Assembly: GCA_016932965.1 (NCBI GenBank)
Contig: JAFGBW010000029.1
Span: 1 to 16,510 of the forward strand
Length of the DNA: 16,510 nucleotides
Reading direction: 5' to 3'
Source: Candidatus Auribacterota bacterium
Lineage (GTDB): Bacteria > Auribacterota > JAFGBW01
Notes under the pieces: model-generated
What the model was told of the DNA's origin: nothing
The model's input: the letters and a program-made list of their open reading frames with translations, nothing else
Database searches by the model: none
Part shown: positions 1,923 to 16,510 of the stretch, in pieces
Layout of the letters: each line of letters opens with the position of its first letter
How positions within the stretch are numbered: the first letter of the stretch is position 1
Translations under genes and position numbers: made by a program

Positions 1923-3992
1923 ATGCAAAATAAAGCAACAGATTTTCTTCTCAAACGTAACTTTTTGATTCCGGATTTTCCTGAACGGATCATGTTCCAG
2001 ACGATCTCAAAGTGTAACGCCTCCTGCGGATTCTGCCCCTATCCATCCGTTTCGCCGGATTTGCCTCACGGAAGGATGGAGGAGGATTTGTTTTTAAAAA
2101 TACTGGATGACTGCCAGCCGTATCAGGAGCATCTCATCAATCTCATTCCCGGTCTCATGAATGAGCCGCTTCTGGATAAACAGCTCATCCAAAAGATCAC
2201 GATCATGAAAAGGAGATTTCCCAGAGCATGCGTTCATTTTCTGACCAACGGGTCGCTGATCGATGAAAAATGCGGCGACGAAATCCTGGATTCGCCTTTA
2301 GACTGGATCGGCATTTCTTTTTTCGGGCACACAAAAGCCAGTTACGAATCCAGCATGGGGCTGCCCTATGAGAAAGTCCGGAAGTATGTGGAGGCGTTTG
2401 TAAAAAAGGCCGTTGCCGTCCGTGGCCCTGAATTCGTGATGATCACGTTTTTCAAATGGAACCTGTTTACCGAACAGGAGGTCAAAGACGAAGTCGCTTT
2501 CTGGAAAGACCTGGGTGTCATGCGCATTTCCAATCATGAAGGGGGGATCAGCCGGGCAGGGAACGTTCCTTCGATCCCGGCTCCGGTCAATCAAAGGATG
2601 AACAGCTGCCATTCCATCTGGAGCCGGAAGATGATGCACATTCTCCATAACGGGGACGTGGTTTTATGCTGCATGGACTGGAGGAGGCGTCATGTGCTGG
2701 GCAATGTGAGGGAAAAAAGCATCCATGAAATCTGGCATTCCGCTGACTATGAGAAAATAAGAAATGTCATCCGGGGTGAAAGCCCTCTTCAGCCCGAGCA
2801 CCTCTGCAGCCGCTGTGAAATGGCTGTGGAGACAAAATATTACAAAATCGTCATGATTCATCCCCATGACATTTTCAGCCACAAGGAACCCTGGACCATA
2901 CGCATTAAAACCCTTGGAAGGGAGCTGGCAAAGATGGGGCATGACGTGACGCTCGTGACATTCACCCTGGATTCTTTTCCGCAGGAGCCTTTTGTCCAGG
3001 ACGGGATGAAAATCGTTTCTTTGTCGAGGAAACTCTCGCTTGTTTATTTTTTTAAAAAGATCCGGATATTAAGACAACTGATCAAAGACGCGGACATCGT
3101 GCATTTTCAGAAAGCGTTTTATTACTGTTCTGTTCCTTCTGTCATTTCCGCGTGGCTTGAGAAAAAATGGATCCATTACGACTGGGATGACAACGAGACA
3201 GCCATTTATTTTTCAGGAAAAAAAACGTCTTCCTACTGGACAGGGTACCTGCTGGGGGCGCTTGAATGGATTCTGCCGCGTGTTTGTGATTCGGTTTCGG
3301 TTTCATCGGATGTTCTCATGAACAAGGTTTTATCGTACGGGATCGAAAAAGACAGGGTCGTTAAAATTCCCGTGGGAGCGGATCCGGTTGAGGTGTCTTT
3401 GGACGACGTCAGGCAGATCAAAGAACGTTATCATTTAAACGGGGACACCCAGATTTACATCGGCCAGCTTCACGGGGCGCAATATGCAGAATTGCTCTTA
3501 CATGCCTGCAGGAAATTAAAGGAAAATGGGAAACGGATCAAAACGCTGATTGTGGGTGATGGCTATGACAGGAGAAGGCTGGAATCCCTGAAAGACTCGC
3601 TGGGACTGGAGGAGGAGGTCATTTTCACCGGAGCGGTTCCGCATGAAAGCATTCCCATCTGGCTGGAAGCCGCCTCCGTTGCCATCGCCTGTTTTGAAAA
3701 AACGAAGGTGACGGAGTGCAAATCCCCTTTGAAGATAGCGGAATATCTTTGTGCCGGAAAGGCGATCGTGGCGCATGCCGTGGGGGAGGTCCCGTTCATG
3801 ATCGGCGAGGCGGGGATCTGCATTGATCCGGACGATCCGGATTCCCTGTGGAAGGCGTTAATGTCCCTTCATGAAAATAAAGACACGATAAAAAAACTCC
3901 AGGCCAAGGCACGCATCCAGGCCAGGCAGTTCACCTGGCTGAGCGGTGCGGAAAAATTGGACCGTCTGTTCCAGAAGATAACGCTCAAATGA
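1923..3992 (+). CDS. Radical SAM/SPASM enzyme fused to a GT4-type glycosyltransferase
   Basis: A 689-residue two-domain protein. Residues about 23-225 are a radical SAM domain with the [4Fe-4S] motif CNASCGFC (C31-x3-C35-x2-C38). Residues about 229-300 look like a reduced SPASM auxiliary-cluster region: C229, C249/C250, the typical LGNVREKSIHEIWHS stretch, then C295 and C298. After a linker of fewer than ten residues, a glycosyltransferase of GT-B fold begins (IVMIHPHDIFS at about 309), with a Rossmann half, then IYIGQLHG, LIVGDGYDR and a C-terminal donor-binding region KSPLKIAEYLCAGKAIVA (E607 region) typical of GT4. No ribosome-binding site or good start lies at the junction, so this is a true fusion. 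The RBS at 1923 is weak; Met24 at 1992 would cut close to the radical SAM motif and is less likely. The substrate is unknown; cell-surface glycan modification is an inference. Confidence 0.88.
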   Translation: MQNKATDFLLKRNFLIPDFPERIMFQTISKCNASCGFCPYPSVSPDLPHGRMEEDLFLKILDDCQPYQEHLINLIPGLMNEPLLDKQLIQKITIMKRRFPRACVHFLTNGSLIDEKCGDEILDSPLDWIGISFFGHTKASYESSMGLPYEKVRKYVEAFVKKAVAVRGPEFVMITFFKWNLFTEQEVKDEVAFWKDLGVMRISNHEGGISRAGNVPSIPAPVNQRMNSCHSIWSRKMMHILHNGDVVLCCMDWRRRHVLGNVREKSIHEIWHSADYEKIRNVIRGESPLQPEHLCSRCEMAVETKYYKIVMIHPHDIFSHKEPWTIRIKTLGRELAKMGHDVTLVTFTLDSFPQEPFVQDGMKIVSLSRKLSLVYFFKKIRILRQLIKDADIVHFQKAFYYCSVPSVISAWLEKKWIHYDWDDNETAIYFSGKKTSSYWTGYLLGALEWILPRVCDSVSVSSDVLMNKVLSYGIEKDRVVKIPVGADPVEVSLDDVRQIKERYHLNGDTQIYIGQLHGAQYAELLLHACRKLKENGKRIKTLIVGDGYDRRRLESLKDSLGLEEEVIFTGAVPHESIPIWLEAASVAIACFEKTKVTECKSPLKIAEYLCAGKAIVAHAVGEVPFMIGEAGICIDPDDPDSLWKALMSLHENKDTIKKLQAKARIQARQFTWLSGAEKLDRLFQKITLK

Positions 3993-8165: not shown

Positions 8166-11100
8166 ATGAAAAGAGTTCTGACAGGTTTTTTCATCGCAGC
8201 GGCCGTGTTATTTTTTGCCTGGGCAAAAGACACGGATTCTTTATCTCCTTCTTCTTTTTTAAAGGATATCCCTCCGTCTGAACCTGAAGAGGCATTGGTT
8301 TATCAAGCCAGGGAAAATCTGCTTCGCTCTGTTGTAGAAAGTGCTCATCCAAGGAGTCTCGAGGATTTTGATGAATCGGATATAACCAAATCCCTTCAGA
8401 CTGTTGCAAAAAATCTCTCCGGTGTTTTTGAATCCGGTTTTCTTCAGTTGTCTGCGTTTGACCGGGCCATTCCCATTCAGGAGGCGGTTGCCAAATTTTT
8501 GTCCGGCAGGCCTGAGCTTGGTGTAAAGGATGTCAGTGAACTTTCCGCTGTATTATCCGCTGCAGCAGCAAAGGCATGGAAAATCGAATCCAGGGCTCCG
8601 CAGGACAACTGGATGAATTTTGCAGGAAAAGAGGGAAATCTTTTTGCGGAAAGTCCGGTTTTCCTGGAAGAGGTGGCTCCCGGCGGAGTGCGGGTGATTG
8701 TCTCGGAGCCCATGTGGAAAACGCTGACACCGGGAGAGCGGATTTCACTCATCCTCGGCGCGTATCTGAAAAATCATTTCCGGCAGACACCTCATGACGC
8801 AGAGGCCATATCCCAGATAATAAAACCTGCCCTGGAAGCGGCATTTGACGCAAAGTGGAATGAAGCTCCCTTAATTTCAGAACTCAAAGAATACGGAAAC
8901 ATGAAATGGAACCTTTTAAAAGCCGGATTCAAAGGCGACATGGAGGCTTACCGGCAGGCGAGAACGGCTCTTTTGAATCAGATCCAAGCGCTTCATGAAC
9001 AGACGAAAGCCTTGTCTTCAGGGACCCTGACCATGCTGTTTGAGCAGGCCAGGATGGAACTCGTTAAAGAGATCGGAACCGACCCGGATATTCCTGAGAT
9101 GGTCAAAAAAATACGGTTCCCCGGAATGGAAAAAATGCAGCCTGAAAACCTGTTTTTTCTGTGTCTCCCCAATCCGATGGAAATCAGGCAGCAAGTGGGT
9201 TTTTCATTTTCCGCCGGGCAGTTGAAAGTCATCAAGGAGGTGACGGGTGAGACGGCCCGGGATTTATACAGCTCCGAAGGCGAGGTAAAAGTCGCGGATA
9301 AGCAAAAAGAATTCATGGACGATGTGTTGTCCTGGAATCTGGCCAGTTTTCTTCCTGAAGAACCTGATCCGGCTTCCCTGCAGGAGGTTGTCTTCGGAGG
9401 TTTATTCAATTTATCCAGGATGGAACATGCGGGCGGGTACTTTCATCCGGGCACCCGGAAGCTTTATTTTCCGGATTTAAAAAATCTTTTGAATTTGCGG
9501 ATTTTTCTCAAGCATGAGCTGGTGCATTACCTGGCTTTTAAGAAAATTTTGAAGTTTGATTTCAGGTTTGAATGGACCACCACGGCGATTCATGTTCTGG
9601 AGGCTGTAGAATACGCCGGGGAGGACAAACTGGGATTATTGCGTTCCTCCATGGGGCCTTTGGTGGATTCTCTTTTTGAAAAGGGAAAAGAGGCCGCAAG
9701 AAAAGGCGCTCCTGGACTTTTATTTGCCCAGACAGCCCAGGGTCCTGTCATCAGCCTGGAATATTTAAAAAGTCTCGTTGAAAAAGTGTATCATGAAAAT
9801 GGATACCCTACTGAAGGACTCTCTGTTGAAGACGGCTGGGACAGGGAAATCGGTGTGGTTCTGGCAGGCATCATGTACGCGAGGCGTCATGATCAGGAGG
9901 ACCAGGAGCCTTATCTTATTGTGCTCAAGAAATTTTTTGACGTGATTCATGAGACCATGCGTCCGCCGACTCCGGAGGAGCAGCAATGGGTGGATAAAAC
10001 TCTTATTCCAAAATTAAAGGCGTACGCGGATTTTACACTGGATGGAAAAACAGTCTTTGCACCCATTGATCCGAAAGATCCGGTGCGCCAGTGGAAGGTG
10101 GAGGTACAGGGCCAGAAAAAAATTGTCCGCTACGTTCCTGAAGAAATCTGGCCAAGGGATTATTACGGAGCTGATCCGGAGGCTCGTCAGCAGAGGGCGG
10201 AGGACAACGCTTTTGCGGCCTTGTCGGAAACGCTTTTCCGGCATAAGCATTCCAGGCTTGACCAGGCCATGCCCCAGGCAGTGGCAAAAGGGATTTCCGA
10301 TGAGAATAAAAGTTTGTTTGAAACGTTATGGAAAAACCTGGAAACGATTGAAATCCTTCGTGAAGGATTGTCCATGTACAGGGGGCTCGAGGCAGCCGGG
10401 GATGATTTAAAAAGCGCCGGCACTCCGGGATTTTCCGGTTTTACTTCTACGAACCTGGGACGTCAGATCTATAATACCTGGAAGGAACGGTTTTCCATAC
10501 GGAATGCGGATGTGGCGGAAACCTTACTGGCAGGGCTCCCCTATCCGATCCAGTTTTTGAACAGCATATTATACAGGATGGTCATGGGTGAGGCCAATGA
10601 TCCCCGGCTCAAGAATAAAAAAGTTCTAGACGCCATAGACAGGACGCGCGAACACTGGCAGGCGCTCATGAATGGCACAGCCTGGTCTGAAAACGCTGAA
10701 GCTGAATTTGAAAAAATCTGGGATAAAATCTGGCCTGAGTTTCTGGAACTGCACAAACTGGCATTGAAGGAGGAGGAGGAGAGAAGAGTCTACGACCGTT
10801 TAAGACGGGACAATTTAAAAGGCGACGAGCCTTCCTGGGATGATTTGTCGGACGAGGACAAGGAGGCGTTGAGGGAATTCATCGAACGCGCATTGGATCA
10901 GATGACCCCGGAAGAAAGGGAGGCATTAAAGGAAGCCGCGAGGGATGCGTTGGAGCAGGAATATCAGGATGCAGGAGAGATGGCAGGGCAAGCCTGTGCA
11001 CAGCCTGCTCCGGGTCCGGCTGGGGCTCAAGCTGGCGGTCAGGTTTCTCCGGAAGGAGGAGAAGGAGCCGCACAGCCTGGTATGGAAGGCGGCGCACAAA

Positions 11101-14100
11101 GACAGCCTGAAACAGCCCCTGGTCAGGCGGTTCAGCCTGCTCCGGGTCCGGATCTGACATCATTGAACCCGGATCAGTTGAAAGAGTATCTGGAGGATTT
11201 GAAAGGAGAAGTGGCAAGGCTGGAAGGCGCGCTGTCTGACATGCAAAGTAAAATCAGCGAGCTGGGAAATCAGACAGGAGAAGTGTCGAGAGGAACGGAA
11301 GGAGTGACAGGCGCGGTCAGCGATGAAAATGCAGGAAAAGCAGGAGAAATTGCCGACGCATCCGGCAACCTGGAAAACAAGGCTGGGGAACTGGACAACA
11401 AGGCAAAGGGGTTGGCAAAAGACGCGGGACAGGTGAGAGGAGGTGTTGAACGTACTGGCAAGGATGCTCCAAGTCCTGAACTCGCGGACAAGGCAAACCG
11501 TTCAGCTAAAAATATGGAGGGAGAAGCAGGCAATTTGTCAAAGGAAACCGAAGAACTGCTTCGTCAGATCAGGGAGGCGGCGGGCCAGGCCAGGGACCTC
11601 AAGGCAAAAATTGATGAAAAAGCGGCCGGAAGCACGGTGAGACAGCATCTGGACAAACTCAAGGAGAACCTGGAAAAGGCACGGGGGAAGATTGACCAGG
11701 TGGCAGCACAGGCGGCAAAAACCTCCGGTGCAGCCGGAGAACTTGGAAAAGACCTTCAAAACAGGGACAACTCAAAGCCCCTCCGCATGGACAATCTTCC
11801 ATCGAACAAGGGGAAGAAAGGTCAAGGCAAGGCAGAACCACAAACCTCACCTGGTCAGGCAGACCAGACATTTGAACCAGCGGAACCCGGAGAACCCGGA
11901 AAAGAAGAGAAAGCCGAGGCCAGCCCACCGTCCTTTGAGCAGATTTTAAGTTCAGTGGGGGCAAAAGAACCGGAAGCTTCAACGGATGAAGAGAATGTTC
12001 CCGAATTCCCGGTTTTTTCTGATCCTCCCTCAGAGATGCCTTCTTTTTCCGAAGCAGGGGAAACAGCGCCTACACCCGGAACCGAGGATCTGCCGGAAGG
12101 ATGGCGGGAGAATTTAAGGGAATTCAGTGCAGCAGTGCAGATGGACGCGGATCCTTTGATCCGCAATATAAACCGGATTTTAAATCCTGATGCCAGGGTC
12201 GGTGCGATACCCGGGTTTTTGGAAGGGGATCTTGATGAACTCGTGGATATGAAAGTTAATGGAACAGGCTTCACCCAGCCTGGTGATGAAAAGCCGGAAG
12301 ACATGGTGGTCTCTCTTTACCTGGATCTGTCAGGCAGCATGATAATTGAAGGAAGAATCGGGCAGGCCCAGTACGCGGCATTTATTTTAACCAAGGCCCT
12401 TTTTGAATTGAAGAACAAGTATAAGCTTTTTGACGTGAACATTCGTTTTGAGGTTTGGGGATTCACGGACATGCAGGAACCCCTTATTTCCTTTGAACAC
12501 AGCGACAAGGTTCAGCCCAGCCAGGTGGAGGCGGAGATTTACCGGATGCTCATGAAAATCCAGCCCGGAGGAGAAAACGATGACGTGACAGCGCTCCAGA
12601 GGCAGTGGGACAGCCTGAAACGGCAGGGCTCCAGCGGAACCAAACGAATTGGTTTTTTTGTTTCGGATTCCACCTCCAATGAAGGTGAAAATGCCTCCAG
12701 GATGAATCAAATTGTAAAAGATGCGAAGAACAAGGACAATATTCTGCTTTTCGGGCTGGGGGTGGGAAGCCAGATGTGTCAGCGTCTTGTGGGTTCGATT
12801 TTTGAGGATCATGCGGTTCCTGTGGGAGGAAAACCGGGGAGCCTGGGAAGCGCGATCATCAGGAAATTGTTCCAATTAGCAGGTGTCAAAGTGGCGGATT
12901 ATTCCTGGATGGAGCTGGTGAAGAGGGTGTTTTCTCCTGTTGAACAACTGTTCATTCAGGCCGGACTGGTCATCGGCAGGCAGGTGCTTTTAATGACGCA
13001 GGCGGTCATCAATGCCATGCGGGAGGAGGACATTCCGGGTTACGAGGAATACGGGTTCAAATACCGTCATGAAAAAGGCATCAAGTACCTGGTGCATTAT
13101 CCCAAAGACACCAGCGGAAACCGGTCAAAAACGTTTGATTATAAAAAGCGCATCGGGCATGAAGGAGACTTCAAACCCAGTTATCTGCCGTATTCAGAAT
13201 CAAATGAAGCGGTGCTGATCGATATGCTCAAACGATCAGACAAGGGATCTGACACCAATGCCAAGCTGGATTACCGGTCTTCCATGACGCACCCGATGGT
13301 GTCTGAAGACGGCGAGCGTTTCATCCGCGGCGTATCCACGGGAGCCTTAGAATTATGGAACCAGAAGACCCGGTCGTTGATCGTGCGTCTGGATAAGCAG
13401 GCGGATTTTGTGCCTCAGCCGGACTGGCCAAAAGTGGAGGAAACGGTCTGGAACGGAACCGTCCGGGACGGAAAGCTGTATCTTTTGACCGCCACGAAAC
13501 AGGGCGGGCTTGCCATGAAAACCTATGAACAACAGGCAGGACAATGGGTTCTGGCTGAGAATCTGTTCTGGGATGATGAAAGTCCGAACGGGAGGCTGGT
13601 GAACCTCATGGGGGAATCCGGCACAGGGAAAGGGGAATTATTAAAAGCCGCGGCGCATCTATGTCAGAAACGGCTTGTGTTTGTCTCCTGTCACAAGGAC
13701 ATGGGCAGGGGAGATTTTGTGTATTACGCGACCTACGGCGAGGAAGAGGAAGGCAAGACCGGCAAGAAATATTCGCATTTGAACGAAGCGGCGCAGTGGG
13801 GAGACTGGGTGGTTCTGGACGAATTCAACAAGGTGGAGACGAACGTCCGGAAGGAACTCCAGACTTCTTTCCAGGAACGGACCTATGAACGTGATATCGA
13901 GGAGACCGTTGCGGGTGGGTCCACAGCCATCCGCCCGATTTCCTACCGCTGGCACCCGGACACCCGGGTGTTTCTGACAGGCAATCCGTTTGACAACGGC
14001 AGGCTGTACAAGGTGAACGAATACGACGATGCGGAAAAACGCCGCATGGAAACCATACCCGTCAGGTGGCAGACCCCGTCTGAAGAAGTGGAAATGCTCA

Positions 14101-16510
14101 TGAAGCTGGCCTTCCCTCCGGGAACGAAAAATTCGGAAAAGGAAAAATGGAGGAAACGGTTTAAATTCTTCGTGAACTGGTCCATGAAAACCAGGCTCAT
14201 GTACCTGGGGTACTCGGAAGCGGACAGCGACAGGATGATCCGGGAGGAAGCGGTTTACAGGAATCCTGAAGATTACAACATCAAACCCAAACCCAATTCC
14301 AAGGGATTGCAGATCGGCCGGCCGGTGTCCACCCGCGTATTGATTGCGCTGGCAAAGGGAATGGTCCGGTTCCCCCTTCTTTTTGAAAACAGGACAGTCA
14401 GTTTTGTGAGCCGTTATTTCAATTACGCGGCGGATGACCCGTCCGTCTGCACGCGCGAACAGTATGCAAATATCATGAGACCCATCAAAGGCTGGAAGGA
14501 TGATTTAAAGGATAAAAGCGGGAAAGAGGTGAAACCGGTCATCACAGTCAACGACGTGAAAGTGGTGAAAGAGCACGGGGTGCTGTTTTTGAAGGTGACA
14601 CCGCCGCCGACGGAGTATGAAGACGCCGAAGGTAAAAAGACAGCCCGATGGGAAGCCCTGAGCATCGAATTGGGGACAAAGGTGGACCAGGCGTTTGCTG
14701 AAAAGCAGATCAAAACCCTGTTTTCGAACCAGTCGAATGCGTTCATGACCTATCAGATTCTGGTGCAGTATCAATTGGGGACACCCATTGTTTTTGTGGG
14801 ATTTCCCGGAACCGGAAAAAGTTATTTCAGCGAAAACACCGGAAAACTGGTTGACGGCCCGGAATTGCTCTCCAAGACTTTTGCCCGGGGAACCAAGTAC
14901 CAGGACGTGGTGGAATCCCGCGAACTGGGCCAGCAGAAAAAAGGGGCGACAGGCTGGATTCGGCAGGCCCTGGTCTGGGCCATGGGGGACAGGAGAAAAT
15001 CAGAAACAGACAGGAGTCAAAGGGGACAGATATACAGGGCCGAGGAATTGAGTCAGGGACCGGCCGCTTTGCTCGCGCTTTTCAACGACATCATGCAGAA
15101 CGGCCGGTTGTTGTTACGGGACGGGACGGAAGTGGAATCCGGGGACGGATGCAGGGTATGGATCACCATGAACCCGCCCGGCGCCAAGACGAAAGTGACG
15201 CCTCTTTCCGGGGAACTCCTGGACCGGTGCGTGTTTTTTGAAACAACGGACATGGAACCGGTATATGAAGTCGCGGAATACAAGTCGATCTGCCAGCATA
15301 AACTGGATGAGGATTTTCTCGGCGTTTTGAACAAGCAGGAGGTTCCTGTCAGGGGGCTGATCAAGGCCGTCACGGATTTGAGGGTGGCTTATGACCGGGA
15401 TCCATCCTGTCTGCCTGTGAGGCCGTCCTTGGGGGATATGGATGCCTTTTTGAAAGAACTCGTGATGGAGTATGAATTTTTTCCTGAAGCGGACAGGGGC
15501 AGGGAAATTTTCAAACGGTTCATGATCAACATTCATGCGGACCCGGAACAATACCCGGACCGTGCTGACGCCATCCGGGCATTGGTCAGAAAAGCACTTG
15601 TGGATGCCGGAATTTTAAAAAGCATTACTGGTAAACCTGAAGACAATCTGACTGTTTTATTGGAAGGAAGGCCTCTAATCAAGGAGGAGCTGGAACTGAT
15701 TGAAAAAGCCGACACGGGTGATCCGGATCTCAACAAAGATCTGGACAATCTGCAGACTGCGGTCATTTCGGCCCGTACAGAATGGGCAAAAAGGATTCAG
15801 CAGAAAATAGGCGTAGCGATTCAGACCTGGAATACGGGCGATTCATGGGATGCCCGAAAAGATGCCCTGCTTCTGATGATCCAGACGGACAGAATTTTGA
15901 AACTCATTGAGGAGCAGAGGGAACACCGGTCAGAAATTGCGGATGTTTTATCAGTCGTGAGAAATGACATCAGGAATGTGGTCACGACATTCGGACTCGG
16001 TGAGGATTTTCTGACCATTGAGACTGGATATTTTAAAAATCAAAAGATATCCCAATGGAATCAGGGCGATAAGTCAATGCTTGACCGATGGTTCAGAATC
16101 CAGCTTCTGGGGGCAGGCCAGAAGTGGAACCGATCTGCTGAAGAGATGAATACTTTGATGAGAGAATTGAAGGAATCGGTTGAGACAAGCAATCTGTTGC
16201 ATGAGAAGATGGTGGATTTATGGAGGCTGGAGTTTTGTGTGCTTCTCCTCAAGGATTCTGATGATTTTAAATTAAAGAAAATGGCGGAAGCCGGGGACCA
16301 GGAAATACAGAGTCTTTGTCAGGAAACGGAACAAATGCTGGCGGAATATGACATAAAAAAGATGAACCTGCCCCAGGAGCAGGTCATGGCCGTATTTAGC
16401 ATGATATCTAAGAAATTGTCTCCGGATTCAGCCTGGACGCCAGAACTCATGCTTCTAACGGAAGGCTTTACGGATGAGATTGAAAAAATCCCCGGAGGTT
16501 TTGTTTCAGC
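8166..16510 (+). CDS. Giant exported HExxH / VWA / tandem MoxR-type AAA+ protein (3' end beyond window)
   Basis: One uninterrupted frame of at least 2,781 codons with no stop before the window end. Residues 1-20 are a signal peptide (KR, hydrophobic core, A18-W-A20 cleavage site). Residues 25-440 are mostly helical. H450-E-L-V-H454 is a zinc-peptidase motif, with E479 or E482 as possible third ligand. Residues 520-940 are helical and charged. About 943-995 is a Pro/Gly/Ala/Gln linker, about 1000-1202 is coiled coil, and 1205-1300 is acidic and Pro-rich. The VWA domain starts near 1380, with MIDAS residues D1387-x-S1389-x-S1391, T1475 and D1501. AAA+ module 1 has Walker A GESGTGKG (1816-1823), Walker B VVLDEF (D1885, E1886), sensor-1 N1940 and probable sensor-2 R2057. 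AAA+ module 2 has GFPGTGKS (2212-2219), EE at 2293-2294 in the Walker B position, N2336 (TMNPPG) and R2354 (LLDRC). The closest conceptual relatives are MoxR/CobS/NorQ ATPases with VWA partners. Its function is unknown; ATP-driven remodelling is an inference. Confidence 0.9.
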   Translation, partial: MKRVLTGFFIAAAVLFFAWAKDTDSLSPSSFLKDIPPSEPEEALVYQARENLLRSVVESAHPRSLEDFDESDITKSLQTVAKNLSGVFESGFLQLSAFDRAIPIQEAVAKFLSGRPELGVKDVSELSAVLSAAAAKAWKIESRAPQDNWMNFAGKEGNLFAESPVFLEEVAPGGVRVIVSEPMWKTLTPGERISLILGAYLKNHFRQTPHDAEAISQIIKPALEAAFDAKWNEAPLISELKEYGNMKWNLLKAGFKGDMEAYRQARTALLNQIQALHEQTKALSSGTLTMLFEQARMELVKEIGTDPDIPEMVKKIRFPGMEKMQPENLFFLCLPNPMEIRQQVGFSFSAGQLKVIKEVTGETARDLYSSEGEVKVADKQKEFMDDVLSWNLASFLPEEPDPASLQEVVFGGLFNLSRMEHAGGYFHPGTRKLYFPDLKNLLNLRIFLKHELVHYLAFKKILKFDFRFEWTTTAIHVLEAVEYAGEDKLGLLRSSMGPLVDSLFEKGKEAARKGAPGLLFAQTAQGPVISLEYLKSLVEKVYHENGYPTEGLSVEDGWDREIGVVLAGIMYARRHDQEDQEPYLIVLKKFFDVIHETMRPPTPEEQQWVDKTLIPKLKAYADFTLDGKTVFAPIDPKDPVRQWKVEVQGQKKIVRYVPEEIWPRDYYGADPEARQQRAEDNAFAALSETLFRHKHSRLDQAMPQAVAKGISDENKSLFETLWKNLETIEILREGLSMYRGLEAAGDDLKSAGTPGFSGFTSTNLGRQIYNTWKERFSIRNADVAETLLAGLPYPIQFLNSILYRMVMGEANDPRLKNKKVLDAIDRTREHWQALMNGTAWSENAEAEFEKIWDKIWPEFLELHKLALKEEEERRVYDRLRRDNLKGDEPSWDDLSDEDKEALREFIERALDQMTPEEREALKEAARDALEQEYQDAGEMAGQACAQPAPGPAGAQAGGQVSPEGGEGAAQPGMEGGAQRQPETAPGQAVQPAPGPDLTSLNPDQLKEYLEDLKGEVARLEGALSDMQSKISELGNQTGEVSRGTEGVTGAVSDENAGKAGEIADASGNLENKAGELDNKAKGLAKDAGQVRGGVERTGKDAPSPELADKANRSAKNMEGEAGNLSKETEELLRQIREAAGQARDLKAKIDEKAAGSTVRQHLDKLKENLEKARGKIDQVAAQAAKTSGAAGELGKDLQNRDNSKPLRMDNLPSNKGKKGQGKAEPQTSPGQADQTFEPAEPGEPGKEEKAEASPPSFEQILSSVGAKEPEASTDEENVPEFPVFSDPPSEMPSFSEAGETAPTPGTEDLPEGWRENLREFSAAVQMDADPLIRNINRILNPDARVGAIPGFLEGDLDELVDMKVNGTGFTQPGDEKPEDMVVSLYLDLSGSMIIEGRIGQAQYAAFILTKALFELKNKYKLFDVNIRFEVWGFTDMQEPLISFEHSDKVQPSQVEAEIYRMLMKIQPGGENDDVTALQRQWDSLKRQGSSGTKRIGFFVSDSTSNEGENASRMNQIVKDAKNKDNILLFGLGVGSQMCQRLVGSIFEDHAVPVGGKPGSLGSAIIRKLFQLAGVKVADYSWMELVKRVFSPVEQLFIQAGLVIGRQVLLMTQAVINAMREEDIPGYEEYGFKYRHEKGIKYLVHYPKDTSGNRSKTFDYKKRIGHEGDFKPSYLPYSESNEAVLIDMLKRSDKGSDTNAKLDYRSSMTHPMVSEDGERFIRGVSTGALELWNQKTRSLIVRLDKQADFVPQPDWPKVEETVWNGTVRDGKLYLLTATKQGGLAMKTYEQQAGQWVLAENLFWDDESPNGRLVNLMGESGTGKGELLKAAAHLCQKRLVFVSCHKDMGRGDFVYYATYGEEEEGKTGKKYSHLNEAAQWGDWVVLDEFNKVETNVRKELQTSFQERTYERDIEETVAGGSTAIRPISYRWHPDTRVFLTGNPFDNGRLYKVNEYDDAEKRRMETIPVRWQTPSEEVEMLMKLAFPPGTKNSEKEKWRKRFKFFVNWSMKTRLMYLGYSEADSDRMIREEAVYRNPEDYNIKPKPNSKGLQIGRPVSTRVLIALAKGMVRFPLLFENRTVSFVSRYFNYAADDPSVCTREQYANIMRPIKGWKDDLKDKSGKEVKPVITVNDVKVVKEHGVLFLKVTPPPTEYEDAEGKKTARWEALSIELGTKVDQAFAEKQIKTLFSNQSNAFMTYQILVQYQLGTPIVFVGFPGTGKSYFSENTGKLVDGPELLSKTFARGTKYQDVVESRELGQQKKGATGWIRQALVWAMGDRRKSETDRSQRGQIYRAEELSQGPAALLALFNDIMQNGRLLLRDGTEVESGDGCRVWITMNPPGAKTKVTPLSGELLDRCVFFETTDMEPVYEVAEYKSICQHKLDEDFLGVLNKQEVPVRGLIKAVTDLRVAYDRDPSCLPVRPSLGDMDAFLKELVMEYEFFPEADRGREIFKRFMINIHADPEQYPDRADAIRALVRKALVDAGILKSITGKPEDNLTVLLEGRPLIKEELELIEKADTGDPDLNKDLDNLQTAVISARTEWAKRIQQKIGVAIQTWNTGDSWDARKDALLLMIQTDRILKLIEEQREHRSEIADVLSVVRNDIRNVVTTFGLGEDFLTIETGYFKNQKISQWNQGDKSMLDRWFRIQLLGAGQKWNRSAEEMNTLMRELKESVETSNLLHEKMVDLWRLEFCVLLLKDSDDFKLKKMAEAGDQEIQSLCQETEQMLAEYDIKKMNLPQEQVMAVFSMISKKLSPDSAWTPELMLLTEGFTDEIEKIPGGFVS
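11001..11151 (+). repeat. Pair of perfect 19-bp direct repeats inside the giant gene
   Basis: CAGCCTGCTCCGGGTCCGG occurs at 11001-11019 and 11133-11151, in the same reading frame. It encodes QPAPGP twice in the low-complexity linker (residues 946 and 990 onward). The linker probably grew by duplication and could expand or contract by slippage or recombination. Confidence 0.8.

Follow-up and report, generated by a model that had tools for sequence, protein, structure and literature searches.

MoxR ATPases and VWA proteins are usually separate subunits, and how they are coupled is only now being solved, for NorQD. A 16,510-nucleotide stretch of DNA from Candidatus Auribacterota (contig JAFGBW010000029.1; the window below) raises the question of whether a whole MoxR-VWA-metallopeptidase system can reside in one polypeptide, as a preliminary description of this DNA had proposed for the giant frame that ends it.

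A giant frame and its colinear homologue

The frame (8166-16508, + strand) is open from its ATG to the contig end over at least 2,781 codons, and its 3′ end is lost because the contig stops at 16,510 bp. From base composition, 2,781 codons would stay open with a log10 probability of about -70. A single pattern of GC by codon position is kept along the whole frame, which thus gives no sign of a frameshift. The gene stands alone, preceded on the opposite strand by a gene for a TylF-like methyltransferase and with a TonB-receptor-like frame as its other neighbor (both named by eye). Elsewhere in the window (1923-3992, + strand), a 689-aa frame looks by eye like a fusion of a radical SAM protein and a glycosyltransferase. 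The features of the giant gene and the evidence for each are as follows.

8166..16508, + strand: giant ORF, at least 2,781 aa, 3′ end missing (ORF, colinear homologue, codon-position GC)
8166..8228, + strand: signal-peptide-like N terminus MKRVLTGFFIAAAVLFFAWAK, then SLSPSS (hydropathy)
9363..9845, + strand: HExxH region, H450-E451-x-x-H454, candidate third ligand E479 (conservation in four giants; no Pfam match)
9846..10955, + strand: helical region conserved with the homologue, outside known families (alignment, Pfam)
10968..12125, + strand: low-complexity linker, A/G/Q-rich and coiled-coil-like, then P/E-rich (composition, weak SMC-like coiled-coil matches)
12291..12884, + strand: VWA domain with complete MIDAS, D1387, S1389, S1391, T1475, D1501 (structure match; Pfam in the homologue)
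12963..13535, + strand: beta-rich stretch between VWA and AAA1, weakly WD40-like (Pfam E 0.2, low-confidence model)
13605..14048, + strand: AAA+ module 1 (AAA1), Walker A GESGTGKG, Walker B VVLDEF, sensor-1 N1940, R1959/R1960 (AAA_5, 5.6e-16)
14787..15230, + strand: AAA+ module 2 (AAA2), Walker A GFPGTGKS, Walker B EE, sensor-1 N2336, R2354 (AAA_5, 3.7e-13)
15849..16508, + strand: C-terminal stretch, open at the contig end, without alignment to the homologue (alignment, Pfam)

A search of 98 genomes returned one full relative, on contig JAKLEM010000028.1 (G013 C21) of a MAG labelled Candidatus Auribacterota bacterium RA.bin133. Its frame spans 4,670 aa or more and is likewise cut by a contig end. 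Residues 239-2561 of the giant are colinear with residues 262-2605 of the homologue at 25-28% identity (E values of 2e-65 and 7e-64), and the HExxH, the MIDAS, both Walker A Lys, the catalytic Glu, both sensor-1 Asn and the Arg residues are invariant between the two. The G013 linker has a layout like that of the window protein, and HEAT repeats come after the AAA modules in the homologue. By these alignments, a second and distant genome of Ca. Auribacterota has kept the architecture.

That an assembly or annotation artefact, a chimera or a frameshift, had joined separate genes was a concern, as the giant gene runs into a contig end and so do the genes of its relatives. Two independent assemblies with one order over 2,300 residues exclude a chimera for residues 239-2561, and the codon-position pattern is constant. 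We therefore dropped this explanation, which is refuted for that region and extremely unlikely altogether. Thus, the single uninterrupted frame of the preliminary description stands on the ORF list, a composition chance of about 10^-70 and the constant codon-position GC, and neither a frameshift nor an assembly join was found across residues 239-2561. The missing 3′ end, whose recovery had been advised, was sought by searching the giant's own genome with the C-terminal half of the homologue, which gave no match.

The full architecture occurs in 2 of the 44 genomes of the phylum. In a survey of 384 genomes across bacteria, which extended the suggested search for the same domain order, genomes outside the phylum matched single modules only, and no further full copy was found. 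A scan of genome contigs found the known homologue and nothing further, a plasmid scan gave no match, and a viral scan returned CobT-like VWA proteins only.

VWA, AAA+ and HExxH modules

The MIDAS of the VWA domain is complete, as first described (D1387-x-S-x-S1391, T1475 and D1501). The window domain itself scores poorly in Pfam, but that of the homologue matches the VWA family at 4.8e-10, and the modelled domain matches NorD of the NorQD complex (Z 13.8, rmsd 3.1, 166 aligned residues, 20% identity), which together support the VWA fold. The model, built from VWA to AAA2 with a two-row alignment, has a mean pLDDT of 40.7, and its VWA part, mostly at 50-65, is the sole usable part. The VIA-align structure list was filled by VWA matches, so that missing AAA+ matches there carry no meaning.

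Each taken alone, the two AAA+ modules pass the Pfam AAA_5 cut-off of 22 with 59.2 and 50.1 bits, which supports the two MoxR-like modules read initially from motifs. The two sensor-1 Asn are also in place (N1940 and N2336). Both Walker A motifs are present (residues 1816-1823 and 2212-2219), but the first ends in GKG and not in GK[S/T]; the second Walker B, initially taken as D-E, reads E-E. Both departures are common to the window protein and its homologue. Since AAA1 is without the Walker A Ser/Thr and AAA2 without the Walker B Asp, one or both modules may hydrolyse ATP poorly. The spacing from strand 2 to Walker B would allow a helix-2 insert hairpin, a region where the models are poor.

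A profile of AAA1 and its homologue counterpart had CbbQ/NorQ as its best single-domain match in the PDB (1.1e-4 with A1, 4.5e-5 with A4). Midasin reached a larger total by repetition only, its best single domain having an E value of 0.0035. Among the ORFs fetched, AAA1 was nearest to stand-alone ATPases of about 300-470 aa, the size of CbbQ/NorQ, and AAA2, which is very divergent, had its closest but weak matches among the AAA modules of other giants. Judging from these differing nearest relatives, AAA1 and AAA2 are not recent duplicates.

The HELVH sequence noted earlier is present at residues 450-454 (0.035 expected by composition). KHExxH is invariant across four giant proteins of the phylum, those of the window and G013 and two further frames in which the region recurs (G005 C23 and G012 C17). 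At residue 479, 29 positions after the first His, the window protein and G013 have Glu, and G005 and G012 have Asp. The G005 C23 and G012 C17 contigs end right after the HExxH region. In two related genomes (3′ ends of L009 and L010), the contigs break at the same point within the giant frame, just after this region, which suggests a repeated or hard-to-assemble stretch.

The HExxH region matched nothing in Pfam up to E 5 and nothing credible in a PDB profile search, gave one marginal match outside the phylum among the 384 genomes, and yielded an unusable model from a two-row alignment (mean pLDDT 39). By these comparisons it defines a family of its own. Neither DUF2201, with its peptidase-like and VWA-like parts, nor any peptidase family was matched in Pfam up to E 5, and the proposed link to DUF2201 was therefore dropped. 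The region is a plausible candidate metallopeptidase, no more; of the HExxH and downstream Glu ligand that mark gluzincins, the HExxH is kept in all four proteins and the Glu in two. Thus, the profile and structure checks advised for these segments upheld the AAA_5 and VWA assignments, but gave a pLDDT of 39 for the HExxH region and no confident AAA folds.

A signal-peptide-like start and the other giants of the phylum

The N-terminal segment, absent from the preliminary description, is by hydropathy the only strongly hydrophobic segment of the window protein. The giant starts with MKRVLTGFFIAAAVLFFAWAKD and the homologue with MKKHTFLVKLISLLLCAAFITQTALAVP, the latter a signal-peptide-like start of its own followed by LAPSS. 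Charge and hydropathy, the sole basis of these calls, fit a signal peptide in both proteins. Other giants whose start is visible are also signal-peptide-like there (G005 C23, G012 C17, G012 C54 and G005 C36). The pattern [LM][AS]P[PSAR]S after the signal peptide was considered as a genome-wide rule and rejected, with 1 match in 57 signal-bearing ORFs on the sampled contigs.

These starts bear on a reading in which the giant is a cytoplasmic MoxR-VWA chaperone, its N terminus being a membrane anchor or a misread start and its HExxH region a CobT-like metal-handling domain that would aid metal insertion into a target enzyme. MoxR/CobS/NorQ systems do load metals, an HExxH ahead of an acidic linker and a VWA domain is found in CobT-like proteins too, and a CobT on a viral contig has, by eye, a Glu 29 residues past the first His, like the window protein. 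However, there are two independent signal-peptide-like starts with an N-in/C-out charge pattern, the HExxH region has no sequence match to CobT, and no metalloenzyme partner gene adjoins the giant, whose neighbors are by eye those named above. We thus consider a cytoplasmic chaperone unlikely.

A signal-peptide-like start on every giant whose start is visible would also suit a protein for adhesion or predation, at the surface or secreted, of the Omnitrophota/Auribacterota type, with AAA+ and HExxH as scaffold remnants and only the ligand-binding VWA and the repeats of importance. In Omnitrophota and related candidate phyla there are giant, very long ORFs, some with signal peptides, which have been proposed to serve adhesion or predation (PMC10066038, PMC12057145). 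In the parts of these papers considered here, they are described as adhesin-like or sugar-degrading, and AAA+ machines are unmentioned (PMC10066038, PMC12057145). The slightly eroded Walker motifs and the HEAT repeats after the AAA modules of the homologue are consistent with such a role. In contrast, the Walker A Lys, catalytic Glu, sensor-1 Asn and Arg are kept in both AAA modules at about 27% identity, which argues for working ATPases, and a search for adhesin-type domains in the giant found none. An adhesin or predation protein is thus rather doubtful.

Several other giants of the phylum combine the same kinds of modules. One of them, G012 C54:24458-45112 (L080, L081), encodes 6,885 aa and lies wholly within an 82-kb contig, with neighbors that read as bacterial enzymes. 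Its signal-peptide-like start is followed by six tandem Walker A/AAA_5 modules, then by HESMH and a MIDAS-like VWA. For part of this protein, eukaryotic midasin gives a match of E 2.1e-85 over seven stretches, much stronger than that of any bacterial ATPase in the PDB (NorQ, 2.7e-8). An in-frame peptide is repeated at several places in this giant, around SLTLPTRGRELFG, and recurs elsewhere in the genome, which looks like the entry of a short repeat into the gene. A related frame, G020 C82 (L018:2-11320, + strand; 3,773 aa, open at both ends), has at least two midasin-like tandem AAA modules, along with repeated domains of no assigned family.

The 5,976-aa frame of G012 C21 (L099:1-17928, - strand) fills its contig and carries three AAA_5 modules, HExxH sites and a VWA (7.5e-7). 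The frame of G005 C36 (L082, - strand) exceeds 5,300 aa and has a signal-peptide-like start and a ClpB-like double AAA; it also holds an HExxH of M50-like look (by eye). Outside the phylum, a 1,418-aa frame (G302 C7:914-2167, L122) matches the tandem AAA of the G012 giant at E 1.6e-26. The presence of the same three module types in one chain in differing orders supports a functional link between them. The usual two-gene form was also seen, as a CobT-like gene with HExxH and VWA adjoining a CobS-like gene.

A cis-fused machine compared with known systems

The pairs of a MoxR ATPase and a VWA partner (NorQ-NorD, CbbQ-CbbO, CobS-CobT and RavA-ViaA) share with the giant AAA_5-type ATPase modules, a MIDAS VWA, for which NorD is the best-identity structural match of the giant's, and a linker between the N-terminal domain and the VWA. 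They are, however, encoded by separate genes, whereas the giant is one frame of at least 2,781 aa with two unlike AAA modules, the VWA ahead of them, a new HExxH region and a signal-peptide-like start. Midasin (Mdn1/Rea1) is, like the giant, a huge single chain of tandem AAA_5 modules and a MIDAS VWA. In contrast, its AAA modules number six, whereas the giant and its 4,670-aa homologue show two, both chains being truncated; its VWA is C-terminal, whereas that of the giant is N-terminal to the AAA modules; and the giant has a signal-peptide-like start. Single AAA modules of the giant match midasin no more strongly than they match CbbQ/NorQ.

The D subunit of magnesium chelatase (ChlD/BchD) also combines an AAA module, an acidic linker and a VWA in one chain, but it has one AAA module, the opposite order, no HExxH and no export signal, and is much smaller than the giant. 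The MoxR class and its conflict-system relatives have been described (PMC7159879). Among them, ternary MoxR-vWA-beta-propeller systems use separate genes (PMC7159879). The giant also has a helical region, then a VWA followed by a beta-rich part, a stretch missing from the initial domain map, whose propeller-like reading is weak (E 0.2).

As far as sequence comparison goes, the giant resembles MoxR/CbbQ-VWA systems and, in design, midasin, and its domain order fits neither. AAA and VWA in one chain are already known from midasin, as are HExxH and VWA from CobT-like proteins. What is new here is the combination of three module types with two AAA, in the giant's order and with a signal-peptide-like start, for which we found no matching family or paper.

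In MoxR-VWA systems, the VWA protein grips the target and the ATPase ring moves the linker (PMC13036017). In NorQD, the pore of the ring holds a VWA finger, and the NorD linker is twisted and stretched as ATP turns over (PMC13036017). The giant, in which a signal-peptide-like start is followed by HExxH, helical region, flexible charged linker, MIDAS VWA and two AAA+ modules, seems best explained as a cis-fused MoxR-type AAA+/VWA remodelling machine, a proposal to which we give an even chance. The tandem AAA+ modules would form a ring, for example of three chains and six modules, on which the VWA of the same chain would dock, gripping a substrate through its metal site. ATP hydrolysis would twist or pull the linker, as in NorQD, and the HExxH region at its far end would act on the presented substrate by cleaving it, binding metal or merely holding it.

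This proposal is supported by the open frame and the colinear homologue with all modules, by the AAA_5 scores and the CbbQ/NorQ match, by the VWA match to NorD (Z 13.8), by the flexible linker between the N-terminal region and the VWA, by the permuted orders of other giants (AAA x6, HExxH, VWA and AAA x3, HExxH, VWA), by the CobT-like/CobS-like gene pair as the usual two-gene form, and by the NorQD precedent (PMC13036017). Against it are the failure to obtain a fold for the HExxH region (pLDDT 39) or a confident one for the AAA modules (40.7), the altered Walker motifs, the missing 3′ end, and the number of full copies, two. A signal peptide would, moreover, remove the ATPases from cytoplasmic ATP. 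Thus, of the whole MoxR-VWA-metallopeptidase system first envisaged in one chain, the VWA, the two AAA_5 modules and the upstream HExxH hold and are kept in the homologue, but the peptidase (model pLDDT 39) and the self-containment of the system are putative.

The signal-peptide-like start suggests that the giant would work at the membrane or outside the cytoplasm, which raises the question of its ATP supply; as ATP is cytoplasmic, exported AAA+ machines are unexpected. Only tentatively do we suggest that an ATP-driven AAA+/VWA/metallopeptidase machine is exported as one giant chain, to the surface, the periplasm, or a host or prey cell, and belongs to a set of giant fused AAA+ machines spread across the phylum, among them a genuine midasin counterpart in bacteria. 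Such an exported machine, if true, would break the expectation that AAA+ ATPases stay near ATP. The six-AAA protein of the phylum bears on the origin of eukaryotic midasin, the ribosome-assembly motor. As a natural fusion, the giant fixes the stoichiometry and order of MoxR and VWA modules and could make their coupling directly testable.
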